A stretch of 41,258 bases of DNA from a virus. The DNA is taken from positions 1 to 41,258 of IMG/VR virus record IMGVR_UViG_3300027777_000066. One strand, 5' to 3'. Made by a program: the position numbers and the translations under genes. Position 1 is the stretch's first letter. Each line of letters opens with the position of its first letter. Shown one piece after another: positions 1,887 through 40,237 of this stretch. The notes beneath the pieces were generated by a model, which ran no database searches, had not been told where the DNA came from, and worked only from the letters and a program-made list of their open reading frames with translations.

Positions 1887-2356
1887 AAGCGGATGCGGCT
1901 GCGGATGGCGGTGAGTGCGCGGCGCTTGGCGTACACGCCATCGCCGAGCCTTCCGCCGTCTCCGTTCGTGTTTCCCTCGACGGTGGGAACCATGCCGTCC
2001 TTGTCGGGTGTGCCGGTGGCGATGCCGATGTGGGAGAACGTGAAGATGACGATGTCGCCGCGTTGGATGTCTCCCATGTGTGGCTTGCGCAGGCGGACGG
2101 TGTTATCCACCGAGCGGCACCATCGTTCAAAGTCCCATGCCCCGGCTGTCTGCGGACGTGGGAAAGTGACGGTCTCGTCGGCAATGGCGCCACGTACGCA
2201 CCAGCAGACGAATGCGGCGCACCAGGCCCATGCGCCGACCGGCAGCCAGGTAGCTTGCTGGTAGCCCTCGATTTTGGTTCCACCGTTGGGCTTAGTTTCC
2301 CGCACGCCGATTTGACTCTCGGCGGCGGCTGCTAGTTTTTCGGATATGTTGCTCAT
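1880..2356 (-). CDS. Endolysin, CHAP/NlpC-type cysteine peptidase or amidase
   Basis: This is a 158-aa protein of CHAP-like type, which cuts peptidoglycan peptides or amide bonds. The catalytic set is visible: C46 in WAWCAAFVCW, H109 in FSHIGIA and an acidic/Asn region at VEGNTN (about 127-131). These follow an N-terminal helix with SQIGVRE typical of phage lysins. There is no signal peptide or membrane segment, so export would need a holin. It is the last gene of the late operon, just after the giant virion protein, and far from the small membrane (holin/spanin-like) genes near 25 kb. It could alternatively be a virion-associated lysin that helps DNA entry. Confidence 0.85.
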   Translation of the reverse strand: MSNISEKLAAAAESQIGVRETKPNGGTKIEGYQQATWLPVGAWAWCAAFVCWCVRGAIADETVTFPRPQTAGAWDFERWCRSVDNTVRLRKPHMGDIQRGDIVIFTFSHIGIATGTPDKDGMVPTVEGNTNGDGGRLGDGVYAKRRALTAIRSRIRFY

Positions 2357-2366
2357 AGATTTTGGT

Positions 2367-5300
2367 TCACGGCACCGGGCGGACGTGCAGGCGCATCGGG
2401 CCTTTTTTCTCGCCTTGGATCATGGCCTTTCCGGCGACGCTGCGGACAGCGGCCTCGCGGATGGCCGGGTGGTTCTGTGCCTGCACCAGCGCGGACACCA
2501 GACCGCTGCCTGGCATGGTCGATGCGGCGGCGTTCATCGCGGGTTGCGCGGCAAATCCCCACACGCTGCGGGCGAGCTTGCGTTCGGCGGTGTTGGTGTT
2601 GGGTGAGTTTTTATTGCCCGTGGCCACGCCGATAGCCTGGCCGACGATGGACGAGGCAGCTCCGAGCGATGGACCGAGAATGCGGGTTGCCGGGTCTTGG
2701 CCGTAGCGAGCGCCGGTGGCCATGTTGAAGAGGATGTCGTAGCCGCCCATCACCGACGAGCGGGAAATCATTTGCAAGGCGCGGGCTTGAGCCAGTTCGC
2801 CGGGGGAGAGCGTCTTATTCTGGTCGGTGCGGGCAGGGTCGCTGTAAAGCCCTTCGCGGAGGCGCTGGATGGCGTACTGGGCAGCGGCGATGGTGGCGAT
2901 GCCCTTGAGCGTGTCGCCAACGATCTTGGTCCGCTCCGCGCCGGACATCTTCTCCACCACTCCATCGACGACAGCCTCGCCCCGGTAGGCCGTGCGCAGC
3001 AGTCTGGCTTGGCGGGCAAGCACTTGGTCTTGGAAGGCGAACAGGAACGATTGGAGTGCGTAGAACATCCCGCCCGCCGGGGAGTTGGCATGTTGCGGGC
3101 GCACGCCACGGGTCACTTCGAGCGAGCCGCCGGAGTTTTTGAAAAGGTGCAGCGCGTCGCGGTACATCTTTGCTTCCGGCGTGTCTGCGGTGAGCATGCC
3201 GAGCTTGTCTCGGGACTTGGCGAAGTCCTCGGTGAACTTGAGCATCGCCGGGATGTCCTTGGAGCCGATGCCCACCTCGTTGAGATGCTTCCCGGCCAGC
3301 GTCTTCATCGACCCGCCCGCTTGGCGCAGTTCGAGCTGGGTGCGGATGAAGCTGTGGCCGATGTCCACCGTCGCCGCGTGGGTGGCGTTGGTCAGCGCGG
3401 TGAGCCAGGTCTTCGTGTGGAACATGGCCACCAGTTCGCCGCCCTTGCCGTGGCCGCCGTAGGAATCGAGGAAGCGGTTGGCGGCCAGCAACGAATTGAA
3501 GCCGTCGCTGCTCGCGCCGATGGCGTTGGAGAGGATGCGGGATTCTTCCGGTGCCATGCCGCGCAGTTCGCGGTGCATGCCCTTGATGGTGCCTACGAGT
3601 CCGCGTGCCACGTCGGACAGCTTGCCCGTGCGGATACCAGCGAGGAAAGGTTCGCCAAGTGAGGAAAACGCGGAGCGGGCGAGGAAGGCAAGCTGGGCGT
3701 GGGTGTGCGCGATCTCCAGCGCCTTGCGCATCGTCGGGTTGTCCTGGCCGTTGAGGCCGAAATACTCCTTCATCAGCGTGGCCGCCGGGGCGATCATGCT
3801 TTCGTTGCCCTCCGCGATCATGTCGGAGCGGAGTTTCTTCCACTTGGCCATCGGGTCGATCTCGCCGTTGGCGCGGGGATTGCCGGCGGCATCGAGCGCG
3901 GGGCCGGAGAACGTGCGTGCCACCCCGGCGGCCCGCACTGCGTCACCGATCTCGGTGCGCAGGATGGCGTCTGGGTTGCGCAGGTAGAACTTGCCGAGCA
4001 ACTGGTCGGCCTCGGGTCCGAACTCGCGACTCTTGAGCATCGACGGGTTGCCGCGTCCGCTGCTGAACAGGTCGTTGCCGTCCGACGAAATGCCCACCTC
4101 GTCCGTCTGGATGTTGGCGAAGTATTTCTTGGCGCTGTCTGCGGAGTCGCGGGCGCTGATCTCCTTGATCTCCGCGCCGATGGCGGTCAGGCGCTTGGCG
4201 TCCTTGAGTGGCGTGAGGGTGGCGGCCTCGGCGTTGAGTGCGGCGATCTCCTTGCGCCACTTCGCCTTGTAGGCGTTGGCCGCCTGCGCCAGAAACTCCT
4301 TCTCGTTGGAAAGCACCGTGGAGCGGTCCAGCACCCGGCGCATGGTGCGCGGTCCGGCGTCGCCCACCTGCACGCCAGCTTCCTTCATGTAGGCCAGCAA
4401 GTCCTCGCGGATTTTGACGTAGGCTTCCACCGCCTTTTTCAGCTCCGGCTGGTTGGCCAGTTCGCCGTCGCGGGAGGCGTCGCAGATGTGGTCGCCGATG
4501 CGTTCCATGAACGCGTCGCGCTCGCGGCGGGGCATCGCGTTGAGGAGCGGGGCGAGCGCCGTCTTGATGGCGTCGATCCGGTTGGCGAACGTCTTCAGAT
4601 CGTGATTCATCCCCAGGTCCGTGGCCACTCCATGCACGCCGTCCGCGCCTTTGGCCAGACCTACCAAGTCTTCGGTGAACTTGCCGAACGCCTTGCTCTC
4701 GGTGCCAGTCAGGCCGCCTTGGGCGAGGTGGCGCATCTTGTTGCCGATGCCCGTCATGTAGGTGGCGTGGAAGACGGTGGCGAACTGCTTGATGTCGTGG
4801 AGTGGGGCACCCCGGCGCATGCGGTCGATGAACGTGCTGGCACCTTCCAGCGCCTTGTCTGCCCACTCGCCCCACTGGCGGGCGCTCTCGGTCTTGCGCG
4901 TCAGCCGGGTGTCCCTGGCGAACATCATGTCCTGGAAAATCTTGGGTCCGTTCTGGCGGATGTAGGCGGCGTTGTCGGGGTAGCGTTTGGCCATGCCGTC
5001 GATGAGGTCTTGCATCGTCGGGGTCTTGCCACCGGCGGCCAGTTCCTCAGCCAGCTTGGGCATTTCCTGCATGAACTTCGCGTCGCGCTCGCCCTGGTAG
5101 CGCAGCTCGTCCTGCGACTTGGCAATGATGTGAGATTTGATGCTGGCTTCCTCGGCCTTGGTGAGTGCTGGCAGACCCGCCGCCGCTCTGTCTGCCCGCA
5201 GGTGGGCGATGACCGCCTTGACCGCATCGCTGATGGACTTGCCAACTTCGAGTGTCTTGATGGCCACAGACAGCGCGGCGTCCCATGCCTGGGCACCGAG

Positions 5301-8300
5301 GATGTCAACCGGCATCGCGTTCATGCGCCCGCTGCCCTTCTCGCCCTTGATCCAGTTCTGCACGTCCTGCTGGTGCGCCTTGAGACCGTCGATGAGGCTG
5401 CGCTGCTCGGGGGGGAGAGCGGCGGTGGGTTGCGTTTCGTTTTGTGGCGTGGCTTGCTCCAACTCCTGTCTCAGTTCCGCCATTCGGGCAGCGTTCTGCT
5501 TTTTGACCAAATCGGTCGTGCCACGTTGAGAAATCCTATACTCCAGCGTCCTGATGTGGCGCTTAATACGGTCGGTAGTGGATTCGGGGTTGGTGGTGGC
5601 GGGCGCGGCGGGTGTCTCTACCACGACTGCCGGTTCCGGCTTGGGTGCGGGTTGGTCGCGGCGGTTGTTGAACAGCGGCGTCTCGCCCTCCGTGGGGCCG
5701 AACAAGTCGGACGTGGTATCGCCAGCGTTGCCCTTGAGCGGTGCCGCCTGGCGCTTGGCAAGTTCTTCCTTGACTCTGGCGGCGTCTGCCTCCGCCTTGA
5801 TCTCGGCGTCGGTGGCGTGGCCTTGCAGTGCGAAGTCTTCGGCTGCGGGCTTGGCGGGCGGCGTATCCACGGGAGCGGGCGGCCTGTCTGCGATAACCGG
5901 CTTGGCTGGAGGTTCGGCGAACGGGTCATACGCATCGTCTGAAAAATGCTCGTCTGCGGGCAGGTGATCTGTCCGTGCCGGTAGAACGTCTTGCGCACGG
6001 GCACGTTCGCCATCGGTGACGGTGCCCTTGCCCTTGTTGGAAATGACAATCTCCTGTTGCGGGTCGATGCGTTGGGTGCCGAACTTGTCATGGTCCTGCA
6101 CCACCATCAAGCCTTCCGGCCCGTCGAACCCCTCGACCACATCGGCGTGCGTGACCTTGAATTTCTCACCGGCCATCGAGAACGTGTCGCCCTCAGCCAA
6201 GTCACTTACGGCAACTTTCTCACCCTTGCCTTTTGGGTTCTCCAGCGCGGCGGTAAAGTCTTTGTGCTGTGTTTCGAGTCGGTCCCAATGCGGCTGCATC
6301 GCGTCGCCTTTTATCCCGTTCTGGCTGGCTACCCTACCCAGTTCCTCGTTGAGCTGGGCGTGGAACTCCTTGACGGTAATGCCAAGCGCACCGGCCAGTT
6401 TGTCCACAGACAGCGCGGTGGGCGACGGGTTGTGCAGGCTCTTGAGCGTGGCATCGGCCAGCTTGCCGCCATCGGTCTTGCCGAAGCCGCCAACCCGTGC
6501 GGCGTCATCGCGGGTTTCTCCGAAGCCATCGGCGATGGCGCGGCTTTTCTCGCTGAGTTTCGCGCCCTTTCGCACTAGCTTTTCGATCAAGTCACTACCG
6601 CGATGCGGTGGTTGGAATCCGCCGTTGTCTCTGATCTTATTCATCAGCTCGAACTCGCCGGAGTCATGCACCTCGGCCACGCGGGCCGCCAGTCGCTTGG
6701 CCTCTCCCGGCTTCAATCCGCCCGCCTCGGCAATCTGGGCGTTGAAAGCAGCGGCACGGTTGCGCAAGTTTTCCAGTTGTTGCGGAGTGCCCTTGCCGGA
6801 CGCCTCCAACCGGGCGATCTGATTCTCGATTTGCTTCACCTGCCCGTTCTTCAGTGACAACTGCTTGGGCGTGAGCGGGACCGCTGGTGCCGCCGTCGTT
6901 TCCGGCGTAACCACGGCGGCAGCAGGCGCGGCGGCAGCGACCACCGGCCTCGTTTCCGGTGCGGAGGGCGGCTTGGGCACCACCTCCGCGACCGGTATTA
7001 CGGGTTCAGCAGCATTTGCCGCCCTTGCCGCCACCCTTGGTGGGAGGCTTGCTTGGTTTGGATTTGGCCATGGTTGTGTGGGGTTCGGTTGCGGTTCTAT
7101 CGCCGCCGGGATGGCGGCGGGAGAGGGGCGGTTCAGCTCTCGAATGGCTGCGGCGCGGTTGTCTGCGGCGGTGGTGGCGGCGAGGCTGGCGCGTTGCGAC
7201 GGGAGTTCCGGGCTGCCAGTCGGTAGAGGAACGCGTTGACGCTGCCATGCGTCTCGTGCCGAAGAGAGGGCGTTGAGGTTGTCGATGTCTCCTCGGAGCT
7301 TGGTGGTGAGGGCGGTTCTGGTGTCATCGGATAGGTTGGGGTGGTTCTCGGCCGCCGCGAGGGCGGTGGTGATTTGGTCGTGGGCGTTTAGGATAGACTC
7401 GTCGGTCACGCCGCGTGCGTGCTGGGCGAACTCGGGCGTGTCCCGCACGGGTATGCTGGCGAGTCCCTTGCGGCGCTTCATGGAAGTCCCCAGGTCCGCG
7501 ATGTCCAGCACGGTGTCGCTGGTGGGGTCGATGTGGCCTAGCACCTGGTGTAGCGCCTCGCCCTCGGTGTCGCCGAACAGGCGGGTGGCTATCTGTCTGT
7601 CTGTCTGGTGGTCGCCGGTCGGGGTTAGCCCCAGTTGCTTGATGGACTGCTCGGTGTGGAAGTTGAATGGCAGTTCCACGATCTCTCCGCCGGGGAGTTG
7701 CAAGGCCGGTCTGCCGTTGTCGTCGATGAGTTTGCCCTTGTAGCCCTGCCACTCGGTGTCCTTGCCGATCAGGTCGGTGATGGTGGGGTCGGGCGCACGC
7801 GGGGGCGTCACGTCGAGCGTGCCCCCGCTGTCCAGTGTCCGCGCCGGCAGGGTGGCCGCAGCCCGCCGCACGTCGTTGGGCGTGACGGTGGCACCCGCGC
7901 CGCTGGGTGTCAGGGTGTTCGGGTCGATGCCGAGCGGCGCGGCCATGTCCCCGGCAAGCCGGGTGGCTCCGGCGGCTTTCAACGGTCCCACCGCTGGAGT
8001 GACCACGGGCGCATTTGTTTCAAGAGGGACACCGCCAGCCTCCACTGGCGTACCCGTTGCAGGTTCTCCCTGCACACCATGCTGCGTCTCCGGGGAAGAT
8101 TGTTGTCCGAACTGCGGCACCCATGCTTTAGGATGCCAGCCGCGATTGAAGATCAAGCCAAGACCTGCCTGCTCGGCCACGTCCTGCGGGCCGTTGCCCG
8201 TCACGGCTCCCAGACCGGCACCCACGCCACCCGCAACGAGTGGCTCCATGATGTCGCTGGATGCTTGGCGGGCAATGGCGTCGGCACCGGGTCGAAGCCC

Positions 8301-10923: not shown

Positions 10924-11727
10924 TCACTCCGCGCCGGAGTAACTTCTGGAATTGAGAAACGCATCCGATTTTGCCACGGTGGGGCCGGAGTTGAACGCGC
11001 CGCTGCTCGCCGCGCTCATGCCGACGTTGCCAAGGGTGGACAGGGTTTGGCCTCCGAGCCTGAGTCCAGCTCCGGTATTGAGAATCTTCTCCTGCTGGCT
11101 TTGGTAATAGTTTTCCGAGGCATTGGAGAGCAGGCCGTTGGCCGCGAGCGGGCGGTTTAGGGCTTGGTTGCGTGCCCCGGCCAGTTGTATCATATTTGCG
11201 CTGTCTTGCAGGCGTTGGTTGCCTGCGATCCTCGCCTGTCCTAGCGCCTGCATGGCCGCCTGTGCCTGCGCCTGCTGCTGGTTGATGCCACCGGCCCGCG
11301 CCAGTTGGCTTGCCAGGGCCGCGGCGTAGGCCGTGGAGCCTGCCGCCTGCGAGTCCTGGCCGCTGCCGGCGTCGCCCACCTGCACCGCGCCTGTGGAGCG
11401 CGTGGCGTCCGCAGACAGCGGGGAGCTGCCTCTGTCTCCGGCGGCGGTTAGGGCCGCTGTGAGCGGAGCTTGGTTGGCCGCCCGGTCTGCCGCCAGCTTG
11501 TCCGGCGTGTAGGCGGCGAGCGTCTGGTCTTGGAACGCACGGCGCGATTGCAGCGCGTCCTGCCGCTGTTGCGCTTGGATCGCCATGTTGTCCTGCATGA
11601 TGGCTCCTTGTCGGGAAACCTCCTGCAAGCGGGCGGTGGCGGCGGCGCGGGCTTGTGAGGCCGAGGCGCTGGCCTGCATGGCTGATCCGGCCACGGTTGC
11701 TATTGCTGATGCTGCGAGCCAGGACAT
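10924..11727 (-). CDS. Putative internal virion protein, Ala/Gln-rich, 267 aa
   Basis: The start is placed at the ATG at 11727 (MSWLAASAIATVAGS). It lies 4 bp after the stop of the previous gene, and the residues that an upstream start would add look unlike coding sequence. The N-terminus is a hydrophobic Ala-rich helix (about 3-20), followed by a long helical region very rich in Ala, Gln and Arg (ASASQARAAATARLQ). This composition is typical of internal or ejection proteins of short-tailed phages, which form helical bundles in the capsid. No enzyme motif is seen. The neighbours on both sides are of the same kind. The specific function is not known from sequence. Confidence 0.6.
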   Translation of the reverse strand: MSWLAASAIATVAGSAMQASASASQARAAATARLQEVSRQGAIMQDNMAIQAQQRQDALQSRRAFQDQTLAAYTPDKLAADRAANQAPLTAALTAAGDRGSSPLSADATRSTGAVQVGDAGSGQDSQAAGSTAYAAALASQLARAGGINQQQAQAQAAMQALGQARIAGNQRLQDSANMIQLAGARNQALNRPLAANGLLSNASENYYQSQQEKILNTGAGLRLGGQTLSTLGNVGMSAASSGAFNSGPTVAKSDAFLNSRSYSGAE

Positions 11728-13019: not shown

Positions 13020-13045
13020 ACAGACAGACAGACGCCAGCCAGCCG

Positions 13046-16095: not shown

Positions 16096-17178
16096 TTAGG
16101 CCACCGCATAGACTCCGCAGGAGTTCATGCGTTTGACCACGGTGCCGCCGGTCCAGGTCATCGAGCGATACAGCGCGTACTTGTCCTCGGGGCGGGCGGG
16201 GGCGTGGACCTTGTTGTCCTCGCCTTCCATCGCGTAGAGTTGGATCGCGTCGGTGTCGATGAAGTAGCAGCGTTTGCTGTAGTCGATGGCACCACCGATG
16301 ATGGTTTGCAGATCATCGAGCGTCGGGTCATAGACCACGGTGCCGATGCCGTTGAGCGACAGCTTGGGAGCCGACAGATCGCGGTTGCCAGCGATGCCCG
16401 TCTGCGAATACTGCGACTTGGCGGCAACTTCAGCTTCCAGCGCATCGAGGAATTTCGATCCGCAGAGGATGAGGTTGGGCTTGCCACCGTAACGGGTGAG
16501 CTGGCGCACTTCCTTCCGCAGAGCGGTAGTGAGCGCGTCGGAACCTGCCGTGGTGGTGATGAGCGGGCGGTTGCGCCACCAGGTACTCGTCGCACGGTTA
16601 ATGCCGCCGATGGTGCCGGTAGTCACCGCGTCGGTGATGTAGGCCAGGATGCCGGGGACCAACTTGGCGTCTGCCGTTCCGTCCAGCCACAGCATCTCGT
16701 TCATCTTGCGGCTCCAACCTTCAGCCATCGAATGCAACTTGTGGTCGAGCAGGCTGGTGAGGCTGGTCACGTCGCGGCCAGACACTTGCGACGGCTTCTC
16801 ACCGAACGCGCTGTCGAGGATGGTGATGCCGTCGGCCTTGAGTTCGGAGAAACTGATGGTGATGCCGGCGTGGATTTCCTTGTACCCGTAGGCAGCACGC
16901 TTCAGGTAGGCCGGGTTCTGGAACGTCACCGAGTCGGTGCCGCTGAAGCCCTTGAAGAAGTTGCTGTCGGAGTTGAGGTAATCGCCCACGACCGGGACGC
17001 TGATTTTTTCCTTGCCGCCCGGGAAGGTCTTCTGCTTGCCGCGCAGGGCGGCGAGCAGGGGCTTGTCCTGGGTGGTCTGGTCGAACGCCTCGCCCTTGAT
17101 GTAGAAGTCAAGTGCGGCGTTGGCAATGGATTCGAGTTGTCCGGCGGTGATGCCGGTGGCAGATGGTGAAAATGACAT
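16096..17178 (-). CDS. Major capsid protein
   Basis: This 360-aa protein is the likely coat protein. It follows the scaffold gene by 20 bp. The pattern fits HK97-fold coat proteins: an N-arm (ITAGQLESIANAALDFYIKGEAF), an E-loop-like region with GGKEKISVPVVGDY, a long spine helix (about 128-165, VSGRDVTSLTSLLDHKLHSMAEGWSRKMNEML) and a C-terminal beta part with FIDTDAIQLYAMEGEDNKV. No N-terminal prohead protease delta domain is present, which agrees with a separate scaffold gene. No Shine-Dalgarno precedes the start, which is odd for the most highly made protein of a phage. Confidence 0.8.
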   Translation of the reverse strand: MSFSPSATGITAGQLESIANAALDFYIKGEAFDQTTQDKPLLAALRGKQKTFPGGKEKISVPVVGDYLNSDSNFFKGFSGTDSVTFQNPAYLKRAAYGYKEIHAGITISFSELKADGITILDSAFGEKPSQVSGRDVTSLTSLLDHKLHSMAEGWSRKMNEMLWLDGTADAKLVPGILAYITDAVTTGTIGGINRATSTWWRNRPLITTTAGSDALTTALRKEVRQLTRYGGKPNLILCGSKFLDALEAEVAAKSQYSQTGIAGNRDLSAPKLSLNGIGTVVYDPTLDDLQTIIGGAIDYSKRCYFIDTDAIQLYAMEGEDNKVHAPARPEDKYALYRSMTWTGGTVVKRMNSCGVYAVA

Positions 17179-18225: not shown

Positions 18226-18276
18226 TTTGTCTGTCTGTCTGCACGCGTGCCAATCCCTATTCGCCAAAATCGTTCA

Positions 18277-21428: not shown

Positions 21429-21474
21429 GGGCTTCTGGTTGAAATGTTGTCTGTCTGTCTGGGGCGTGGCAACC

Positions 21475-27314: not shown

Positions 27315-28171
27315 TAGCTGATGGATCTGGTTTTGAAAGCGTTGATAAGAGTGTCTAAAACGTGTATAACATCGTCAATGGAGGCGGTGGCTGGGTCGAA
27401 CGTCAGCGTGCTTACGGCGGCGGTGGTGGCGGCTATAAAGGCGGAGGCACTTCTCCTCACCGCCACCAACACGTTCGGTGCCGCAGCCACCCCGCTCGTC
27501 GTACTCGCCGAGGTGCAGCCCGCGTTCGTCACAGATCCCAAGGCCAGCACAATGTTCAGCGTGGTGTCATTCGCCACTCCAGGGGCCAACGTCGTCAGCG
27601 TTATCACAGCGTCGCTCGGATGGCCGACAGCAAAAAAGCCAGCCATCTCAGCACTCGCATTCAACTGCTGGAAAATACGGTCCATCCACTGCGCCTGCGT
27701 CATCCCCTTGTCCAGCATTACGTTGAACACCTTCGCCGGGCTGAACAACGCACTCGTCACCGTCACACTCACCACCCCACCAACCCCAATCGGCGTCGAT
27801 CCAGACGCCGTGAGCGTACTCACCTGACACGTCCCAGCCTGCACCGTCGATCCCCCCATCCGCACCCGCATCTTGCACGGTGCCAAATCGAAGTTAGCCT
27901 CGCCGCCTGCACTCAACACAACCGCCGCATCCAAGCTGTTCTTGATCGGCAACCACACCACCCCACCATCAATGCTGAACTCCAAATTCAACACCCCTCC
28001 CGTAAACGACCCTGACGCAAAAAATGTCCCGCTCCCACCCATCCAGTCGGCAATCCCAGTGCTGCCATTCGTAATAACCTGCTCCTTGATGGTCTGCATT
28101 TGCTCAGGAGCATGCCCACCAAGACCCTCCATACAAACCATTTTTGCCAAATTCGTCCGCCAGACAGACAT
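27314..28171 (-). CDS. Phage structural-type protein, 285 aa, unknown
   Basis: The start is placed at the ATG at 28171, reading MSVWRTNLAKMVCMEGLG. A GTG at 28192 would add seven residues and cannot be excluded. The protein is Ala/Thr/Val/Gly-rich, predicted mostly beta with a helical end (about 255-285, ASIDDVIHVLDTLINAFKT). A segment GGVLNLEFSIDGGVVWLPIKN (about 55-75) resembles a small beta domain found in phage tip or decoration proteins. It directly follows the small terminase in the late operon after a 400-bp gap with structured RNA. A virion role is inferred from composition. Confidence 0.55.
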   Translation of the reverse strand: MSVWRTNLAKMVCMEGLGGHAPEQMQTIKEQVITNGSTGIADWMGGSGTFFASGSFTGGVLNLEFSIDGGVVWLPIKNSLDAAVVLSAGGEANFDLAPCKMRVRMGGSTVQAGTCQVSTLTASGSTPIGVGGVVSVTVTSALFSPAKVFNVMLDKGMTQAQWMDRIFQQLNASAEMAGFFAVGHPSDAVITLTTLAPGVANDTTLNIVLALGSVTNAGCTSASTTSGVAAAPNVLVAVRRSASAFIAATTAAVSTLTFDPATASIDDVIHVLDTLINAFKTRSIS

Positions 28172-28578: not shown

Positions 28579-29066
28579 TAACCGCACCCGCCGCTGTCTG
28601 CGCCGTCTGTCTGCGGGTACGCCTCGGCGTCGATGGCGGAAAGCCGATCCACCTCCGCAATCGACTTTATCACCAGCCTCTCCAGGTCGGCGGCGGTGAG
28701 CTGCGACGGCGAGCGCTCACTGTCGTCGCCGGCCCGCAGCGCCAGGCGGCGGCTCTCGATGCCATGCCCGCCCGCCTCTAGCACCCAGCGGCTAGCCGCA
28801 AACTTGGCCGCAGCCGGGGCCGTGTCTGAGTCGATGATCGACTCCAGGCATCGCAGTGCCTTATGGGCCAGCCCGCCGCATAGTATGCGCTCCCGCTCGG
28901 TGTGCGCCGCCCGCTGCACCTCGGGCAATGCCAGCGTGCGGCGAGCGGTAACCGCCAGAGCGTTTGGCGAGCCGTGAGCATATCCGGCGGCGCGAGCGGC
29001 GGCAGACTGCCCCATACCGTTTGCGATGTTGCGCGCAAAATCTCGCTGCTTATGTGTGAGGGCCAT
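28575..29066 (-). CDS. terS: Terminase small subunit
   Basis: This 163-aa protein starts MALTHKQRDFARNIANGMGQSAAARAAGYAHGS, which as a region (1-33) matches the N-terminal HTH of phage small terminases (a 'LTxKQxxF...G..QSxAARxAGYS' pattern). A helical centre (about 70-105) probably makes the ring, and an acidic C-terminal tail (about 130-163) would contact the large subunit. It recognises the phage packaging site and hands DNA to the large subunit. It is the first gene of the late operon. Its upstream region holds a striking repeat cluster. Separation from terL by nine genes is atypical. Confidence 0.82.
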   Translation of the reverse strand: MALTHKQRDFARNIANGMGQSAAARAAGYAHGSPNALAVTARRTLALPEVQRAAHTERERILCGGLAHKALRCLESIIDSDTAPAAAKFAASRWVLEAGGHGIESRRLALRAGDDSERSPSQLTAADLERLVIKSIAEVDRLSAIDAEAYPQTDGADSGGCGY

Positions 29067-31008: not shown

Positions 31009-31086
31009 AAGCTGCCGCCAAGCTGCCGCTGTCCGCAGACACGCCCCGACCGCCCCGACCGCCCCGACCGCCCCGACCGCCCCGAC
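31009..31086 (+). repeat. Tandem repeats: AGCTGCCGCCA and five exact copies of a 9-mer
   Basis: AGCTGCCGC(C/T) units occur at about 31009-31030. They are followed by GTCCGCAGAC, then five exact CGCCCCGAC copies (31042-31086). No ORF crosses convincingly. The tract lies in the 318-bp gap 30860-31177, just before the regulatory repeats of the gene at 31178. Exact copies suggest recent slippage. Confidence 0.75.
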
Positions 31087-31095
31087 CGCCGGCAC

Positions 31096-31180: not shown

Positions 31181-31471
31181 AAAATCACAATCGACCACCC
31201 AGCCAGCTCCTACGGCGTCCCCGTCATGCTCGACGACGACGGCAGCGTGCTGCCCTACGCCAAAGGCATCCGCATGATACGCAAGCGCTTGCGCCTCTCA
31301 ACCAGTGATCTCGGCGCTATGTGTGGAGTGTCTGCCCGCACGATTGAGCAGTGGGAGTACAAGCGGCTGCCGCATGCAGCCGCTCTTAACGTCATGTCAA
31401 CCATGCCAATCAATACGTTCGTTCCGCGTCCTGTGAAGTCCACAAAGAAGCGGAAATCCAGTAGCGATTGA
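31178..31471 (+). CDS. HTH regulator (XRE/antitoxin-like), 97 aa
   Basis: Residues about 27-68 (AKGIRMIRKRLRLSTSDLGAMCGVSARTIEQWEYKRLP as a region) form a helix-turn-helix with the recognition helix SARTIEQWE. The N-terminus, HPASSYGVPVMLDDDGSVLPY, is a short arm. The last 20 residues are very basic (VKSTKKRKSSSD). The start codon is part of the third ATTCGGCGCTAATG repeat, so it probably represses itself. Its 3' end overlaps the 3' end of the primase gene by 62 bp, tail to tail. A role as a lytic/lysogenic switch component facing the early operon is inferred. Confidence 0.75.
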   Translation: MKITIDHPASSYGVPVMLDDDGSVLPYAKGIRMIRKRLRLSTSDLGAMCGVSARTIEQWEYKRLPHAAALNVMSTMPINTFVPRPVKSTKKRKSSSD

Positions 31472-33692
31472 TCTTGCGATCCGAGTCGAACACGCCAGCG
31501 GACACGCGGCCACGGTCCTGCTTGGCCAGTCGCGCCAGTGCCGACCCGCAGGCACCCGACCACGTGAACATGCTCCGCGCTTGGTCGCGGACAGGTGAGC
31601 CGTTATCCATCAAGCGCGTCTCAATCTCCAGAGCGGTGAACGAGCGGGGCAGGTCGTGCCAGATGCCAGCGTGCTGCACTGCGGTTGCAATCAGATCATC
31701 CAGGCGACGGGCGGGCGAGTTGGCGTCCACAGCGTCCACCAGATCGGGGTCGCGCCATGCCAGCACGCCAGAGCGTGAGTCGCGCAGATGCTCGGGAGTC
31801 ACCCAGCCGTCCAGGTCGTGCGCCAGGGCTGGCAGCTCGCGGCGCAGTGCCGCTTGCAGTTCGTTGCGCCCCTCCGGCGCGGACGTGTCGATGGGCAGCG
31901 TGATCGGGTTGAAATGCAGCAGAATCACCTTGTCTGACATGTCTGCGTCCAGAGGCGGGATGATTTGGAGTGCCTCGGGCGTGTCGTTGCAGCACACCAT
32001 GCACGCCCATACAGGCCGCACGCTGATGCTCGACGCGTGGCGCTTGCGAAGCTGCACCGCCTGCGGGTACATCGCCTCCTTGAACGCCGCACCGAACAGA
32101 CGCCGCGCACGGATGTCTGTCTGCGCTTGGCAATCGTCCACCACCAGCATCTCGGAGCCGATCAGGTCGTCGTTCCACAGCATGCCGCCGCTCCAGGCGG
32201 CGTAGGGGTTGGCAGAGCGCCCGCCAAGCACCTGCGTAGTAATCCATGCCAGCAAGCTCTTGCCGCTATTGACCTCACCGGCCAGCACCAGCATGGGCGA
32301 GGGGATGTGCGTGTGGCCGCGTACCGCCTTATAGCGACCAGACAGCCACGCCATATAGACTTCCAGCGCCGTGACGTTCGCAAACGCTTGGTTTAGCAAG
32401 CTCTCGATCAGCGGGTACTCGCCCTTGAACGGGCATGGTGGCTTGGCCTCGGACGTGATGAGGATGGGCAGCCCGTTGCTGTCCGCAGACATGCCTTGAG
32501 CGTGGCCGGCGATGTTGCCGCTCCACTGGATGCCGCCGTCAAGCTGCCGGTCCGCGATGGACGCCTTGGTTGCCCGCATCAGTTCTTTTGGGTCGGGGAA
32601 TTGGTCTGCCAGATGTCTGGCAACGCCGGTCACTACAGGCGCGGCGGCCGAGTAGATGAAGAAGGCGTTTTTAATCCTCACCAAATACTTGGCGGCGGGG
32701 CCGTCGTAGAACACGTCGGCGGGATCAAACGACTGCATGGTGGATTTGCCGACCGGGTGCAGGATGGCCGCCACATCCGAGTCAGCCTTCCAGTTTGGGT
32801 TGTCTGCGAACGGCTTGGAAAACGCGCTGCGTGCCGCGTCCACCGCCTCGGTGGGTTGCAGGGGGCGGCGCAGGCTGCCATCGTATGACTTCAGGCGCTC
32901 CACCGTGTCAGCCTCGCTCATATCCTCGATGCGGCACCACCACGCGGCGTCCATCAGCCAGGTGTGGATGCCGTTGGCTGGCGGTTGCGGGAACTCACCA
33001 TGCTGGCGGCTCAGGATGATCTTGCCATTGATCTTGATGCGCCCCTTGCCCGCGCCCTTGGGCTTGGCTGCCACCGCAGCGGCAGGCAACTCAGGCTCGG
33101 CGTCTGCCACAGGCTCGAACAATGCCTCGCGCTCCAGGTCGATCCACGCTCCGGGATCGTGGCTCACGAAGCACAGGCGGCCAGGGTCCTTGCACGCCTC
33201 GTCGATGACGAGGTTGTGGCCTCGGAAAAAGTTGCGGGCGGCGATGAACGCGCCCAGGTGCGTCGCGCTGTCTGCCGGGATGCGGGCGATGCCCTTGACG
33301 CCGTGGCCGGACGGCGACACAAACGCCGCCACAATGCGCGGTTCGGCTTGGAGTATCTCGACGATCTCATCGACAGACCAGCCGATGTTGTCGCAGGCGT
33401 CGAAGTCGAGTTGCAGGAAACCGCTGTGCGTGAAGCGCCCCTCAGCCACCGCCTTGCCGCGCTTGCCATCGCAGCAGCCGCTGATGCTCACAGCGGGCAG
33501 GTTGCGCTTGGCTAGGCTGTAGCCATCGTCGTCGCCAGCAGACAGCGCCAGACGCAGCTTGGTGATCTTCTCATCGAACTCCCCGGAGCGGACGCCCTCG
33601 ATCATGTCGGATAGAGTGAGCGTGGCTTCCGCCACGGGGGATGTGGCAGACTTATAGTAGTCGATCTGTGGGCTTGGATGGGTCATGGTCAT
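31410..33692 (-). CDS. VirE-N-type primase fused to P-loop helicase
   Basis: This 760-aa protein is the likely replication primase-helicase. The N-terminal 200 residues match the VirE-N/BT4734 type: LQLDFDACDN (about 93-102, the acidic pair of an AEP-like primase), SPSGHGVKGI (about 126-135) and DPGRLCFVSHDP (about 171-182). The middle (about 240-300) is a helical linker. The C-terminal half has Walker A LAGEVNSGKS (about 467-476), Walker B EMLVVDDCQ (about 507-515) and an arginine-rich region typical of superfamily 3 or DUF927-like phage helicases. The loading partner and a DNA polymerase are not found, so the host enzyme must be used. It ends the early operon. Walker residues support activity. 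Confidence 0.8.
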   Translation of the reverse strand: MTMTHPSPQIDYYKSATSPVAEATLTLSDMIEGVRSGEFDEKITKLRLALSAGDDDGYSLAKRNLPAVSISGCCDGKRGKAVAEGRFTHSGFLQLDFDACDNIGWSVDEIVEILQAEPRIVAAFVSPSGHGVKGIARIPADSATHLGAFIAARNFFRGHNLVIDEACKDPGRLCFVSHDPGAWIDLEREALFEPVADAEPELPAAAVAAKPKGAGKGRIKINGKIILSRQHGEFPQPPANGIHTWLMDAAWWCRIEDMSEADTVERLKSYDGSLRRPLQPTEAVDAARSAFSKPFADNPNWKADSDVAAILHPVGKSTMQSFDPADVFYDGPAAKYLVRIKNAFFIYSAAAPVVTGVARHLADQFPDPKELMRATKASIADRQLDGGIQWSGNIAGHAQGMSADSNGLPILITSEAKPPCPFKGEYPLIESLLNQAFANVTALEVYMAWLSGRYKAVRGHTHIPSPMLVLAGEVNSGKSLLAWITTQVLGGRSANPYAAWSGGMLWNDDLIGSEMLVVDDCQAQTDIRARRLFGAAFKEAMYPQAVQLRKRHASSISVRPVWACMVCCNDTPEALQIIPPLDADMSDKVILLHFNPITLPIDTSAPEGRNELQAALRRELPALAHDLDGWVTPEHLRDSRSGVLAWRDPDLVDAVDANSPARRLDDLIATAVQHAGIWHDLPRSFTALEIETRLMDNGSPVRDQARSMFTWSGACGSALARLAKQDRGRVSAGVFDSDRKINRYWISASLWTSQDAERTY

Positions 33693-33743: not shown

Positions 33744-35168
33744 TCAATATAGAGAATCAGATCGGCTCGGTTCATTTTGTGTGGTGACTTCATGTGTTTG
33801 GGAAACTTGTTTGCCTGCCATGCGTTGCAGGGCGTGGACGGCGTGGAGCAAGCCCGTCTGCGTGTCGCTCTTGTCTCGCAGCGCCTCGGCCACCGCGTCG
33901 TCGATGGTGCCAGCGGCGATCAGACGGTAGATGATCGTCTCCGCAGCCTGGCCGGTGCGGATCAGTCTAGCGTTGGTCTGTAGGTACGTCTCGTTAGAGT
34001 AGGTCAGGCTCATCCACACCGCGATGCGGCAGGATTTTTGCAGCCCGTCGATGCCGTGGGATAGCGACCGCGCGTCAGCCACCCAGGTATGTATCTCACC
34101 GCGCTGAAACTCGGCCATGTCGCGCTCGTCGAACATGCGGGCACCGGGGATGGCAGCCAGAACGCGGGCGCTCTCATGTTTGAACGCGCACAGCACCAGC
34201 ATCGGCTCGCGGCCATGCTTGGCCCGCAGCTTTTCCAGCGCGGCCACCTTGGCGTCATGCACCGGCAGGATGTTGCGGTCCTCGTCGTAAACCGCGCCGC
34301 TGGTTAGCTGTAGCAGCTTAGCGCAGAGTGTGGCGGCGGTCAGTGCGACCACCTCGCCGGAGGTATCAATTGATACCAGCAATTCCTTTTCCAACGTCTT
34401 GTACTGGCGCTTTGCGTCCGGCGGCAGGACGATTGGAACGTCCACCACCGATGACGCGGGCATGTCGTTGTCCTCGCCCAGCAGCACCAGACAGACATCA
34501 GACAACGCTGCGTCGATCTCCTCCTTGCAGCCCTTGCGCAGCTTGTAGGAGTATCCCATGTAGTCGGCTTGATGAAAATAGGCGTCCTTGTAGCCGGTGA
34601 ACGTCTTGCCCAGCCGCTCTCCGTCGTCGAGCAGGCGGGCTTGCGCGAACAAGTCGAGGTAGTCGTTAGGCACCGGCGTGCCGGTCAGCCCCCACCTGCG
34701 GGCGAACTTGGGCAGATGCTTGCGCAGCGCCTTGAACCGCTTGGACGCATGGTTTTTTGCTAGGCTCAACTCGTCGATGACCAACGTGTCCACCGGGCAG
34801 TGCGCGGAGCGTGGCGGAAACATATCTGGAAGACGGTTAGGCAGCATCTCCGAGTTGATTAGATAGATGTCCGCGCTGCCGTCGTGCCATGCCTGCATGC
34901 CCTCCGCCGTGCGCAGGTGGGCTACCCGCATCCATGCGCTGTGCGTCCATCGCGCCACTTGGGCAGGCCATGTGATCGAGCAGACACGCAACGGGGCAAC
35001 GATGAGCGCCGCCTTGAACTGTCCGCAGACGGCTAGCGTGTCAATCGCCGCCAGCGTCACCACCGTCTTACCCTTGCCCGGTGGCACGAACAAGGCCGCA
35101 CGCTCACGATCAACCAGATGGCCGATCATCGCCGGTTGATAAGGGAATGGGTGGAATGTCTCAGGCAT
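33744..35168 (-). CDS. SNF2-family DEAD-box-like helicase/translocase
   Basis: The 474-aa protein has helicase superfamily 2 motifs: motif I PPGKGKT (29-35), motif II DELS (132-135, replacing DEAH), motif III LTGTP (161-165) and a motif VI-like NARLIRTGQ (about 406-414). Such phage SNF2 proteins move on double-stranded DNA. They are regularly found next to a VRR-NUC nuclease gene, as here (the next gene upstream, 2 bp away). Roles in recombination or replication-fork restart have been proposed for this pair; no direct evidence is in the sequence. Walker A lacks the usual first Gly spacing but keeps GKT. Confidence 0.85.
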   Translation of the reverse strand: MPETFHPFPYQPAMIGHLVDRERAALFVPPGKGKTVVTLAAIDTLAVCGQFKAALIVAPLRVCSITWPAQVARWTHSAWMRVAHLRTAEGMQAWHDGSADIYLINSEMLPNRLPDMFPPRSAHCPVDTLVIDELSLAKNHASKRFKALRKHLPKFARRWGLTGTPVPNDYLDLFAQARLLDDGERLGKTFTGYKDAYFHQADYMGYSYKLRKGCKEEIDAALSDVCLVLLGEDNDMPASSVVDVPIVLPPDAKRQYKTLEKELLVSIDTSGEVVALTAATLCAKLLQLTSGAVYDEDRNILPVHDAKVAALEKLRAKHGREPMLVLCAFKHESARVLAAIPGARMFDERDMAEFQRGEIHTWVADARSLSHGIDGLQKSCRIAVWMSLTYSNETYLQTNARLIRTGQAAETIIYRLIAAGTIDDAVAEALRDKSDTQTGLLHAVHALQRMAGKQVSQTHEVTTQNEPSRSDSLY

Positions 35169-35170: not shown

Positions 35171-35443
35171 TTAAAGAATGGTGAAGACAGCAGCACGCCC
35201 TGCCGCGATTGAGTCCACGGACACAGCCGGGATGTCCTGCTTACACAGGTCGTTCATCCACTTTTTTTGCAGAGCGGTGGGCTCCTTGCCCGGGGCCTTG
35301 AACTCGATGAATATTACCCTTCCTTTGCAGATGAACATCCGGTCTGGCACTCCCCGGTGGCCGGGTGTCGCGTTCTTGATAGATATGCAGCCGTTGGCGC
35401 GAGCGTAGTCGCAGACAGCTTTCTCGATGGTGGATTCCCTCAT
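35171..35443 (-). CDS. VRR-NUC domain nuclease
   Basis: This 90-aa protein is a minimal VRR-NUC, a PD-(D/E)XK-fold nuclease. Visible residues are E6 (TIEKAV), G31-V-P-D34 and the core F46-E47-F-K49 in IFIEFKAPG, then Q59 in ALQKKW. Such stand-alone domains can act on branched DNA such as Holliday junctions. It lies 2 bp from the SNF2 gene and its start overlaps the end of the methyltransferase-like gene by 4 bp (ATGA). The pair is widespread in phages. All active residues are present. Confidence 0.88.
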   Translation of the reverse strand: MRESTIEKAVCDYARANGCISIKNATPGHRGVPDRMFICKGRVIFIEFKAPGKEPTALQKKWMNDLCKQDIPAVSVDSIAAGRAAVFTIL

Positions 35444-36405
35444 GGCTTGGATGCTTCCTTGGATGGTTCAATAAAACTGTTGTCCCCAAGAATTGGACGC
35501 GCCATCAGCACGCCGTGGAACGTCTCATATTCCATGCCGTCTTGGGTCGGCCCTGGGCATTCGCATTCTTCGCAGTAGTCCAGCCCGCAGAGTGAGCAGA
35601 CTTCGCCAAGCTCCCCGGTTTCCTCGTCGTAGCCGTCGCAGTCTGCCGCGAAGCTCACGCGCCGCCATCCGGTATCACCGCCCCATTGCAGAGCCATCGC
35701 GTCCGCGATTCCCTGATACGTCTTGGAGCGTTCGCGCCAGCGGTCAGGCGACGGTGTGAGCTTGTTCTGGCCGTTGTCGCATTGATTCGCCCAGCGTGGC
35801 TTTCCGTCCACCATCCGGGGCGGGACGTTTGCGGTTGGCCGGAGTTTCGGCAGACCTTTCAGCCATAGCCCGGTGGTCTTGCTCGCATCGTCCCCGAACT
35901 GGTGCGGGTGGACGTATTGACAGGCTTTGCGGATGTTGCTGGAGATCGCGCCCACGGGGTTCTCAATGGCAATGCGCGGGCAGTCCGCATCCATGAACAG
36001 GCGCACGAAGTCCAGAGCCTCGGCTTGCGCCTTCCGGCGATCCTCGCCCACCAGTGTTCCCTGTTTCACTTTCTGGTGATACCCCACACCGGGGAATTTG
36101 TCATAGTCCGGGTCACTGAATGCCCATGCTGCCGCTACGTTCAGATAGGTGCATGGCGGGTGAGCGATGATTAGATCCCATCCGTTGCCGAGAATGTCCC
36201 GAACGTCGCCCGTGTAGTGGTCGCCGGGTGTTTCGGTTTCCAGCATATCGCAGGACGTGGCGACGTGTCCCAGGGCGTTGAAGGCATCCCGGACGGTTCC
36301 CGATGACTCGCAAGCCACAAGAACACGAAGAGGGACAACAAGACGCTGCATGGAATGCCGAGGAGCATCCTGCGCGAGTTCGAGCGTTAATTGGTCGGCA
36401 TCCAT
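35440..36405 (-). CDS. Cytosine-methyltransferase-like protein with C-terminal zinc finger
   Basis: The ATG at 36405 lies 4 bp after the stop of the preceding gene; an upstream start at 36432 would add nine residues and overlap it. The protein has an SAM-binding motif I (VLVACESSGTVRDAF, about 28-42) and motif IV with the catalytic-type Cys, IIAHPPCTYLN (79-89). A motif VI-like IENPVG follows at about 150. A C-terminal four-plus-Cys finger, CSLCGLDYCEECECPG, ends the protein. This is a divergent phage family whose methylation has rarely been tested. It may protect phage DNA or only bind it. The PPC Cys is intact. Confidence 0.75.
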   Translation of the reverse strand: MDADQLTLELAQDAPRHSMQRLVVPLRVLVACESSGTVRDAFNALGHVATSCDMLETETPGDHYTGDVRDILGNGWDLIIAHPPCTYLNVAAAWAFSDPDYDKFPGVGYHQKVKQGTLVGEDRRKAQAEALDFVRLFMDADCPRIAIENPVGAISSNIRKACQYVHPHQFGDDASKTTGLWLKGLPKLRPTANVPPRMVDGKPRWANQCDNGQNKLTPSPDRWRERSKTYQGIADAMALQWGGDTGWRRVSFAADCDGYDEETGELGEVCSLCGLDYCEECECPGPTQDGMEYETFHGVLMARPILGDNSFIEPSKEASKP

Positions 36406-36409
36406 GAGC

Positions 36410-36700
36410 TTATGCGTTCGCCGGGAAATCACGGACCTCCATGATGCGGCTTGTTTTGATTCCTCCGTGGACGGGAATCATTCGGACGTTGCAAAGGGCG
36501 TCCTCAACTTCTCTGCGAACATTTTTCGACAACGATTCCAAGTCGAGCGTCCTAAACGCTAGCGTCTTTTCGAGTCGCTGGACGTATCGCTCTAACCCTG
36601 CAATCTTTCTATCTCGTTGATCCAGACGGCGAACAAGTCGCTGGACCACAACGCCATGACTGGCGCTGTTTTGGGGTGGGGGTTCGTTGGTTTCAGTCAT
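36410..36700 (-). CDS. Coiled-coil protein, 96 aa
   Basis: The start is set at the ATG at 36700 (MTETNEPPPQ), which overlaps the previous stop by 8 bp; a longer reading has no support. After a Pro-rich start, residues about 20-75 form a strong basic coiled coil (VQRLVRRLDQRDRKIAGLERYVQRLEKTLAF as a region). The C-terminal part is VEDALCNVRMIPV. Function unknown. It could be a DNA-binding or oligomerising accessory factor of the replication genes. This region (36.4-37.2 kb) is more AT-rich than its surroundings. Confidence 0.55.
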   Translation of the reverse strand: MTETNEPPPQNSASHGVVVQRLVRRLDQRDRKIAGLERYVQRLEKTLAFRTLDLESLSKNVRREVEDALCNVRMIPVHGGIKTSRIMEVRDFPANA

Positions 36701-37349: not shown

Positions 37350-38099
37350 TTAGCGGCTCGATACCACCGGCTTCTTAAACACCCGCAGGCCAATGCGTTC
37401 ACCGGCGGCCACAATATCTCGACCATGCTCGTCAGCGTCGCGCAGCCAGGTGAGGATGGCCATCCGCGACGGGATGATCGTCACCAAGTCGCGGCGGGTG
37501 TCTGCCAGCTTGTCTGTATCGTCCACCTCAAAGTCGATGGCGAAGCGCACGCCGTTGGGCGATGCCAGCTCTGCCACGCTGGCGCTTGCAGCCATGCGCT
37601 CGTCCAGCGCCGTCTGTCGCGCCTTGGCCGCAGCGATGGCCGCCAGCGTGTCAGACAGCTTACTGCTATCCGCCGCGGCTGCCGCAGCCTGCTCTGCCGC
37701 CACCCGCGCCGCCTGTGCCACCTCAAACGCAGCCCGCTCCACCGCCAGCGCCGCTGCCTGCTCTGCGGCCACCGACTCTGCGTGGTCGCCCACTAGCCTG
37801 TGAATGCGTTCTTCCTCGGCCTTGATGCCAGCCACAAACTCAGCGGCGGTCGCATCTATGAGCTTGCCTATCCGATTGACCGGCTCCTTCACCATCTTGC
37901 GGCATTTTTCAACCTCGATGCGCATCTGGCCAAGCGTGCGCGATACGTGTTGTGCGTCCGCGCTATCGTCGTTTGTCGCCACGCCCGTCACACTGGCTGC
38001 CAGCACCAGCATCGAGGCTTTACGTTTCTCCGCGTCGGGTGAGATGGTTAGCGAGTAACCGTTGCCTTGTAGAATCAGGGATTCTGTGTCTGTGTTCAT
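37350..38099 (-). CDS. Coiled-coil protein next to DNA-metabolism genes, 249 aa
   Basis: The N-terminal domain (about 1-60) is beta-like with ILQGNGYSLTISPDAEKRK. It is followed by a long Ala/Glu-rich coiled coil (about 60-175, including VAAEQAAALAVERAAFEVA and ARVAAEQAAAAAADSSK). A C-terminal globular end (about 185-249) has FEVDDTDKLA and ILTWLRDADEHGRD. This layout is common in phage recombination or nuclease-accessory proteins of unknown activity, found near annealing and ssDNA-binding proteins. The start follows an A/T-rich leader with ACCAATTTAATACC. Confidence 0.6.
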   Translation of the reverse strand: MNTDTESLILQGNGYSLTISPDAEKRKASMLVLAASVTGVATNDDSADAQHVSRTLGQMRIEVEKCRKMVKEPVNRIGKLIDATAAEFVAGIKAEEERIHRLVGDHAESVAAEQAAALAVERAAFEVAQAARVAAEQAAAAAADSSKLSDTLAAIAAAKARQTALDERMAASASVAELASPNGVRFAIDFEVDDTDKLADTRRDLVTIIPSRMAILTWLRDADEHGRDIVAAGERIGLRVFKKPVVSSR

Positions 38100-38326: not shown

Positions 38327-38328
38327 AG

Positions 38329-38718
38329 TCAGAACGGTTGATCTGATAGGGCCGCAGGATGCTCCCACAGCAGCCACGGCAGACGGTGGAGCAGCAGCGG
38401 CTGCAACCCCTCCCGAGTCGGCCGCGCCGCCAGCCAGCAGGTCTCCGGGTCTACCGGGTCGCGCATCAGGCACAAATCCGTCTCGAAGCTGTTCATTGCC
38501 TGGTGCCACGTCGCCACCTCCGCGCTCGCGCCCACCGGCAGCATCGGCAGCGCCTCGCCAGCCGTGCGCGACAGGCTGCGGTTCTCCGCCGGCAGCGATC
38601 GGGCAGTCTCGTCGGGAGAGGGTCTGTCTGTCAGCACCACTCCCGCAGACGGCTTTCCCGGCAGTGCGGCAGCGGCGGCTTTCTTCTTTGCGGCGATGAT
38701 TTCAGCGATGGTGGCCAT
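38329..38718 (-). CDS. Conserved phage early protein, 129 aa
   Basis: The start is placed at the ATG at 38718 (MATIAEIIAAKKKAAAAALPG), seven codons after a possible upstream start. The N-terminal helix is Ala/Lys-rich, followed by a Pro/Ser linker. The C-terminal 60 residues, WHQAMNSFETDLCLMRDPVDPETCWLAA with LQPLLLHRLPWLLWE, match a small domain I recall from many phage genomes next to recombination genes; its function is not known to me. Context beside the DNA-binding protein gene at 38796 fits DNA metabolism. Confidence 0.6.
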   Translation of the reverse strand: MATIAEIIAAKKKAAAAALPGKPSAGVVLTDRPSPDETARSLPAENRSLSRTAGEALPMLPVGASAEVATWHQAMNSFETDLCLMRDPVDPETCWLAARPTREGLQPLLLHRLPWLLWEHPAALSDQPF

Positions 38719-38795
38719 GTCGTTATTTCTCTCACCCACAATGCCCCACCCCGAGAAACTCAGGGTGAGGCGCTTCGATTAACCCTTGGGGTAAA

Positions 38796-39527: not shown

Positions 39528-39547
39528 TGTTGTTGTTGTTGTTGTTA
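39528..39547 (-). promoter_or_regulatory. AAC-repeat leader just upstream of the start codon
   Basis: On the mRNA strand, six AAC triplets run directly into the ATG at 39527, following the TAA stop at 39545-39547 of the preceding small gene. There is no Shine-Dalgarno. An unstructured CAA-type leader is known to raise translation in other systems (the plant-virus omega leader); a similar effect here is inference. Confidence 0.6.
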
Positions 39548-39694
39548 GAAAAATCGGATCACGCAGTACACCTCCGCGATGATGCTTGCGATGGCAGCCA
39601 CGGCCAGCGCCCACGCCACCACAAAATCGCGGTAGAGTCCGCGCACCTTGCGGCGCGCCGGGAAGACGTAGATGATCGGCAGGAAATGTTTCAT
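39545..39694 (-). CDS. 49-aa single-TM protein
   Basis: Starts at the ATG at 39694, which overlaps the preceding stop (ATGA), and ends at TAA 39545-39547. The peptide has a short basic part, FPARRKVRGLYRD, and one hydrophobic segment, FVVAWALAVAAIASIIAEVY (about 24-43). It is inside a run of very small early genes (39545-39989), two of which are membrane peptides. Such early membrane proteins can block superinfection or alter host membranes; the role here is unknown. Confidence 0.6.
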   Translation of the reverse strand: MKHFLPIIYVFPARRKVRGLYRDFVVAWALAVAAIASIIAEVYCVIRFF

Positions 39695-39897
39695 CGTGGC
39701 GTGCGGGTTTTTAGATGTACAGACCCCACCCGGCGGGCAGCTTCCAACAAGTCACCGCAGCGTATCCAAACGCTGTCGGTGCCGCGCAGGCTCGCCGCCA
39801 TTGACTCCAGCATGCCGCGTTCCTCCACCGGATGAATGCCCGTCGTGATCGCCCGGTAGCCCGTGTCGATCGCCTCTTGTTGTGTGATGATTCTCAT
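39691..39897 (-). CDS. 68-aa early protein, unknown
   Basis: Begins MRIITQQEAIDTGYRAITTG and is linked on both sides by 4-bp overlaps with small genes, which supports it being real. It is likely a small alpha/beta protein with a helical segment (about 27-45, RGMLESMAASLRGTDSVWI) and a basic tail. No motif is recognised. Function unknown. Confidence 0.55.
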   Translation of the reverse strand: MRIITQQEAIDTGYRAITTGIHPVEERGMLESMAASLRGTDSVWIRCGDLLEAARRVGSVHLKTRTPR

Positions 39898-39989
39898 TGC
39901 AGTTGTTTAGTTAGAACGAAGATGATTACCGCCAGCACGCAGTCCACCGCCACCACGACAGACAGACACAGCATGATGACATCCCTCAC
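39894..39989 (-). CDS. 31-aa single-TM peptide (GTG start, or 26 aa from ATG)
   Basis: The GTG at 39989 makes a GTGA overlap with the preceding stop; an ATG at 39974 is the alternative start. The body is one membrane segment, CLSVVVAVDCVLAVIIFVL, with tail TKQLQ. Its codons 7-11 (ATGCTGTGTCTGTCTGTC) include one of the genome's GTCTG repeats. It is too short to be sure of, but the overlap with both neighbours supports translation. Confidence 0.45.
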   Translation of the reverse strand: MRDVIMLCLSVVVAVDCVLAVIIFVLTKQLQ

Positions 39990-40237
39990 AGGTCCACCTC
40001 CACCCGGTCCATGTCCGCATTGTGCAGCTCGTTCAGTCTGGTTCTGTACTGCACCCGGCAGACCGGGCAGACGCCTTCCAGCCAGCCGTCTTCTACGGCT
40101 TGGTCGGCGATGGCCATTTCTATCTCCGCAGACAAGTCCAGCAGGTTGCCCGTCACTGGTTCGTCCACGATGATTTTGTGATACTGTCCGCAGAAGCGGC
40201 ACGCGCGATCGGCGGAGATGATTGCTGTGTAGGTCAT
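39986..40237 (-). CDS. Zinc-finger-like protein, 83 aa
   Basis: The start at 40237 (MTYTAIISADRACRFCGQYH) is chosen over an upstream reading that overlaps the whole next gene. Two CxxC pairs, CRFCGQYH (about 13-20) and CPVC (about 58-61), likely bind one zinc, with a helical part (DLSAEIEMAIADQAVEDGW) between. This layout is common in small phage transcription or DNA-metabolism modulators. No further function is readable. Confidence 0.6.
   Translation of the reverse strand: MTYTAIISADRACRFCGQYHKIIVDEPVTGNLLDLSAEIEMAIADQAVEDGWLEGVCPVCRVQYRTRLNELHNADMDRVEVDL

Follow-up and report, generated by a model that had tools for sequence, protein, structure and literature searches.

What is repeated in this phage genome, and why, is the question raised by two words, GTCTGTCT and GTCTGCGGAC, that are scattered along it. 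The DNA analyzed (hereafter the window) is 41,258 bp long, has a GC content of 0.61 and makes up the whole of an IMG/VR virus record. It belongs to an uncultured freshwater-type virus of bacteria that is a member of a podovirus group. The minus strand bears nearly all of its genes. Those that enter the analysis are as follows.

28-1206, plus strand, integrase (phrog_1), context gene
16096-17178, minus strand, SU10-like major capsid protein (matches Pfam weakly, under the cut-off)
18277-20487, minus strand, portal protein
21475-23064, minus strand, terminase large subunit (TerL), query for gathering relatives
31410-33692, minus strand, primase/helicase with a BT4734-like N domain
33744-35168, minus strand, SNF2-type helicase, query for relatives of the replication module
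35171-35443, minus strand, endonuclease/Holliday junction resolvase type (phrog_93, phrog_5702)
35440-36432, minus strand, DNA methyltransferase (phrog_757)
37350-38099, minus strand, possible exonuclease (weak match to phrog_10477, E 3e-4)

A DNA search of the phage collection with the first 25 kb of the window revealed no near relative, and the closest cultured terminases are those of Microcystis phage Mae-Yong1326-1 (53%), Rhizobium phage RHph_N65 (48%) and Pseudanabaena phage Pam1 (43%). Neither an annealing recombinase nor Gam/Abc2 was recognised among the scanned window proteins; most early genes are without any match, and nucleases are present. A tRNA search of the window for a link to the host gave no tRNA, and no Rfam match was over threshold.

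A short core within the longer words

A sequence-only reading had placed GTCTGTCT at 12 sites and GTCTGCGGAC at no fewer than seven, on both strands and in genes as well as gaps. The recount bore this out: all 12 places are present and hold 16 overlapping copies of GTCTGTCT (11 on the plus and five on the minus strand), with start coordinates 0-3 bases off those first listed, and seven copies of GTCTGCGGAC lie at the named starts (two on the plus and five on the minus strand). The GTCTGCGGAC pattern read backwards has no copies in the window.

7595-7606, plus strand, GTCTGTCTGTCT, two overlapping GTCTGTCT followed by G
13022-13033, minus strand, AGACAGACAGAC, two overlapping GTCTGTCT
18171-18178, plus strand, GTCTGTCT
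18229-18240, plus strand, GTCTGTCTGTCT, intergenic, flanked by genes 17199-18218 and 18277-20487
18352-18359, plus strand, GTCTGTCT within GTCTGTCTGCGG
21449-21460, plus strand, GTCTGTCTGTCT, intergenic, flanked by genes 20484-21428 and 21475-23064
28162-28169, minus strand, GTCTGTCT
28605-28612, plus strand, GTCTGTCT within GTCTGCGCCGTCTGTCTGCGG
32115-32122, plus strand, GTCTGTCT
34489-34496, minus strand, GTCTGTCT within GTCTGATGTCTGTCTG
38622-38629, plus strand, GTCTGTCT
39960-39967, minus strand, GTCTGTCT
2148-2157, plus strand, GTCTGCGGAC
11407-11416, minus strand, GTCTGCGGAC
17772-17781, plus strand, GTCTGCGGAC within GTCTGCGGACAG
24423-24432, minus strand, GTCTGCGGAC
31031-31040, minus strand, GTCTGCGGAC
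32481-32490, minus strand, GTCTGCGGAC
35021-35030, minus strand, GTCTGCGGAC

One of the GTCTGCGGAC copies adjoins a 9-bp perfect tandem repeat, CGCCCCGAC, present in 5.4 copies at nucleotides 31042-31090.

On both strands together, 1.03 copies of GTCTGTCT are expected from base composition, 0.82 from an order-2 Markov model and 4.8 from an order-4 model; the values for GTCTGCGGAC are 0.15, 0.16 and 0.42, respectively, the order-4 expectation already including the enriched pentamer described below. When synonymous codons were permuted within genes (about 33 kb of coding DNA), which preserves the proteins and codon use, GTCTGTCT was found 8 times against 1.1 expected and GTCTGCGGAC 5 times against 0.3. 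The counts obtained from Markov models and codon permutation are therefore far below those observed, and codon and base use, named beforehand as what might predict them, does not.

The true unit is a short core, (T/C)GTCTG, of which the 8-mer and the 10-mer are extensions.

2148-40550, GTCTG set, 175 copies (109 on the plus and 66 on the minus strand), on average 218 bp apart, including 81 TGTCTG

TGTCTG ranks first of all hexamers in the window (81 against 18.9 expected), and under a codon-preserving null GTCTG is the top pentamer (148 against 77, z 9.8-10), with TGTCTG at z 15. Synonymous permutation within genes over the same 33 kb or so gave 136 GTCTG against 70.5 and 58 TGTCTG against 13.5; the excess over protein and codon needs goes from about 1.9-fold (GTCTG) to 4-fold (TGTCTG), and this permutation ruled out an ordinary codon or composition effect. 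The enrichment is independent of codon use and symmetric between strands: density is 4.1 per kb in coding and 4.7 per kb in non-coding DNA, copies in each of the six frames add to it, and relative to the codon null the excess is much the same on the top (1.8 times) and bottom (2.1 times) strands. The test for strand skew that the sequence-only reading had suggested thus detected none beyond the codon null.

To the left of GTCTG the favoured base is T, then C, and in the window clade the base to the right is C or T. A longer consensus was sought around GTCTG, and the information proved to be confined to the core and the -1 base (5-6 bp). The word is non-palindromic (GTCTG/CAGAC), and its one-base neighbours are near 1 or lower, the excess sitting in one sharp-cored word. 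The longer words of clade A are in part made up of tandem copies or close direct pairs of the core, direct GTCTG pairs being frequent at offsets 4, 8, 9 and 11 (33 at offset 4 against about 1 expected at uniform density). Isolated copies nevertheless predominate, with about 16 tandem overlaps among the 175 sites. A palindrome or hairpin reading of GTCTGCGGAC was rejected: inverted GTCTG pairs within 40 bp occur at chance (18 against 17), and therefore the 10-mer is no evidence of a hairpin.

GTCTG in related and unrelated phages

GTCTG is a property of the phage branch and recurs in separate branches. Among the TerL relatives the excess is carried by L008 (90%) and L009 (89%) and not by L010-L012 (80-81%); it recurs in L020/L021/L022 (TerL about 61%) and in L024/L051. 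In G008 and G009 the word reaches 9-10 per kb, one per about 105 bp (387 against 137 and 462 against 170, respectively), and under the codon-preserving null its z is 21-23 in G008 versus 0-1 in non-enriched relatives. GTCTG tops three separate branches of the podovirus group, and on a TerL tree, a quick one built from that single gene, the GTCTG label needs at least four changes, of which well-supported branches force three. In G439 (L385-L387), an unrelated phage of 60 kb, TGTCTG occurs 121 times against 43. This phage encodes RNR, DNA polymerase and VWA-type genes and strongly avoids palindromes (278 against 736).

The relatives gathered with the helicase tell how the word stands to gene content. 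Only L328 and L329 of the 34 are enriched (L360 weakly), with L260 added through another search, and about 30 share the helicase without the excess; in 22 of these a homologue of the window primase was detected. No gene present in enriched genomes only was found among the compared relatives. The methyltransferase is also in L352 and L337, which are without GTCTG excess, and was not found in L329, which has it. A gene-linked cause was therefore rejected. L328 has a terminase 93% identical to that of the window and the same replication module (helicase 76%); the other helicase relatives (L330-L360) have no match to the window terminase on the stretches compared. Either whole modules have been exchanged in mosaic fashion, or the stretches are not long enough to decide.

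Sister branches have words of their own: CCAGG in G012 and kin, CGGAC in G017 and kin, CCGGC in G015 and TGTCC in Mae-Yong1326-1. As a control of the method, the known Bacillus subtilis Chi, AGCGG, came out as the top pentamer, with like fold excess, in contigs of Bacillus badius (58 vs 23) and Aneurinibacillus (54 vs 29). The top hexamer of an Avibacterium contig consists of parts of its USS.

Conservation of copies in aligned phages, which had been proposed as a check, was found over short distances and not over longer ones. Of 59 pentamers with the same GC content, GTCTG is retained best between G008 and G009, which are 87% identical (0.76 versus 0.65), and among the window, L008 and L009 its retention is 0.58-0.63 versus 0.35-0.44. 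Between the window and L260 or L329, old splits at about 70% identity, single GTCTG sites showed no excess retention, so that individual sites are replaced and the density is maintained.

Avoided words and restriction

The coding DNA of the window contains 170 six-base palindromes where the codon null gives 626 (ratio 0.27), and 14 palindromes are wholly absent; depletion is similar in L328, L008/L009 and cyanophage Pam1. G008 and G009 (L168-L173; 42.7 and 47.9 kb) have no GATC, no CTAG and 0-1 GCGC. In L020 coding DNA, CCGG, GATC, AGCT, ACGT, GCGC and CGCG are all at zero, as are GGWCC in G016 and CCWGG in G010. Such extreme avoidance of restriction sites in the podovirus group is that of DNA under attack, and this strong restriction pressure makes it likely that cut ends and exonuclease are routine for these phages. 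G012 (L186-L188) has 500 CCAGG against 249 and 556 GATC against 157 expected by composition; ACTGG, CCTGA and GTAC are absent from it and its palindromes are not depleted. This phage may have a multi-site methylation of its own.

Displacement by restriction avoidance was rejected as the source of GTCTG, since a shuffle so constrained keeps the excess: in the window it stays at z 8-10 when the 38 avoided words are also barred, and across the phages so treated z is 8-21 with 38-55 words barred.

Candidate explanations for the word

Separate branches and an unrelated phage have converged on the word with no gene in common, which points to something that the hosts share. We tentatively propose, at somewhat less than even chances, that GTCTG was selected as a Chi-type recombination word of the phage's host, a host that our search did not find. 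GTCTG would be the Chi-type word of a host helicase-nuclease of the RecBCD/AddAB type. Phage DNA that is cut or has an exposed end would be digested by this enzyme as far as GTCTG, where the enzyme would switch to recombinational repair. With a word each 200 bp or so (about 105 bp in G008/G009) little DNA would be lost and the phage could be rebuilt from fragments, while branches on other hosts would bear other words (CCAGG, CGGAC, TGTCC). This reading is the most likely one because of the convergence, the AGCGG control, the precedent of E. coli phages and the restriction pressure, and the z of 8-21 left after avoided words are barred supports it. Counted against it are the lack of orientation bias and of a hot region as described for Chi, the close direct pairs (offsets 4, 8, 9 and 11), which are no known Chi feature, the turnover of single sites at about 70% identity, and the presence of resolvase-type and possible exonuclease genes in the window.

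Also counted against the Chi-type reading is that no host is known and no sampled genome comes near the phage density. Word counts in about 1,030 bacterial genomes (399 Pseudomonadota, 292 Cyanobacteriota and 337 Alphaproteobacteria, some of them present in two of these sets, and other phyla hardly covered) gave none approaching the GTCTG-word density of the phage: the maxima were 0.30 per kb for CTGTCTG and about 0.7 per kb for TGTCTG, versus 1.02 and 1.96 in the phage. Pieces of the highest-scoring genomes showed no GTCTG excess above z 2.3 under the codon null, and a paired-word search in 80 genomes from the order of a MAG with a TerL relative found nothing.

E. coli phages without a RecBCD inhibitor over-represent Chi with an observed/expected ratio of about 2.4-2.5, and the Chi excess in those without recombinases exceeds that of the host core genome (PMC3784561). 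Chi in these phages (GCTGGTGG; Bobay, Touchon and Rocha 2013, PMC3784561) resembles GTCTG in being a short asymmetric word with about 2-fold or greater excess in genes and gaps. GTCTG differs in having a core of 5-6 bp rather than 8, in being far denser (4-10 per kb versus 0.2 per kb), and in its lack of orientation bias or regional concentration, a bias that is typical of E. coli and not strictly defining; its role is predicted from the pattern. The likeness to AGCGG, which is recognized by AddAB and was demonstrated biochemically, lies in the pentamer length and a like fold excess under the same codon null (two Bacillales contigs); GTCTG, in contrast, is a pattern in sequence, and none of the sampled genomes is that of a host bearing the word. 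The DUS of Neisseria and the USS of Pasteurellaceae are words of 9-12 bp enriched in the bacterial genome. They too are dispersed on both strands, and here neither a word of 9-12 bp nor, among the sampled genomes, an enriched one was seen. The stoperators of cluster A mycobacteriophages are likewise a phage word at many genome sites, about 13 bp long, a few dozen in number, located in gaps and oriented, unlike the 175 GTCTG sites, which are mostly within genes and on both strands.

A phage protein, such as a primase or one that packages or condenses the DNA, might prefer GTCTG as its site and so select for it on both strands, but this is unlikely. T7-type primase sites have a GTC core, clade A has direct pairs at short fixed offsets, and the words of different branches (GTCTG, GTCCG, TGTCC) resemble one another. 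However, replication modules differ among the GTCTG branches (the window has a BT4734-type primase, G008 another primase/helicase family set), the helicase relatives described above lack the word even when they have the same primase, and no gene exclusive to enriched genomes was found.

Less probable still, the surplus could be a functionless by-product of restriction-site avoidance and of 4-bp tandem duplication by slippage. These phages do avoid dozens of words and tandem GTCTGTCTG is strongly over-represented, but the excess persists in the codon shuffle that bars those words, the avoided words are not the same across the three GTCTG branches, isolated copies dominate, and G016 and G010 show the excess with few tandems. 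Similarly improbable is a compositional signature of the host, produced by context-dependent mutation or repair and passed to its phages with no direct benefit to them. The word does track branch rather than gene content and is also found in the unrelated G439; against this, no bacterial genome among those sampled bears such a signature, and the excess is in one sharp-cored word with one-base neighbours near 1 or below.

A self-mark, with GTCTG as the site of a methyltransferase or of a defence system that spares word-rich DNA, is quite improbable. A DNA methyltransferase is encoded in the window and G012 is enriched in GATC and CCAGG, known methylation sites, but the methyltransferase does not track the word (L352, L337 and, in reverse, L329), and we know of no precedent for a 5-bp non-palindromic mark at such density. 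Chi, uptake and packaging-orienting words had all been invoked in the sequence-only reading, and Chi fits best; a word for DNA uptake or for orienting packaging is very improbable in spite of the genome-wide dispersal, as packaging-orienting words of the KOPS type are strand-skewed and GTCTG has no skew beyond the codon null, while for uptake there is neither a long consensus nor an enriched host among the sampled genomes.

A broader form of the Chi-type reading is possible, if on the unlikely side: that an uncultured phage has one selected, host-specific pentamer, at up to 10 copies per kb, which is swapped when the branch moves to another host, and that GTCTG is an undescribed Chi-type word shown by all phages of one bacterial lineage, unrelated ones included. 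The word could then be a host barcode, and phage genomes by themselves could reveal the specificity of repair enzymes. Few bacteria have a known Chi word; should phages show that of their host so plainly, their sequences alone could allow Chi specificities, and links to hosts, to be deduced for uncultured bacteria, and phage adaptation to host recombination enzymes would become testable far beyond E. coli. Should GTCTG prove to be something other than Chi, separate branches that have converged on one pentamer, symmetric between strands and independent of codon use, still demand explanation.

A last observation concerns Microcystis phage Mae-Yong1326-1 (L382, OP028995), which has a GC content of 0.72 and TGTCC as its top word (184 against 74). 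This phage was reported to be lytic on strains of three cyanobacterial orders (PMC9503304), and the gap in GC content between it and Microcystis makes its true natural host worth checking.
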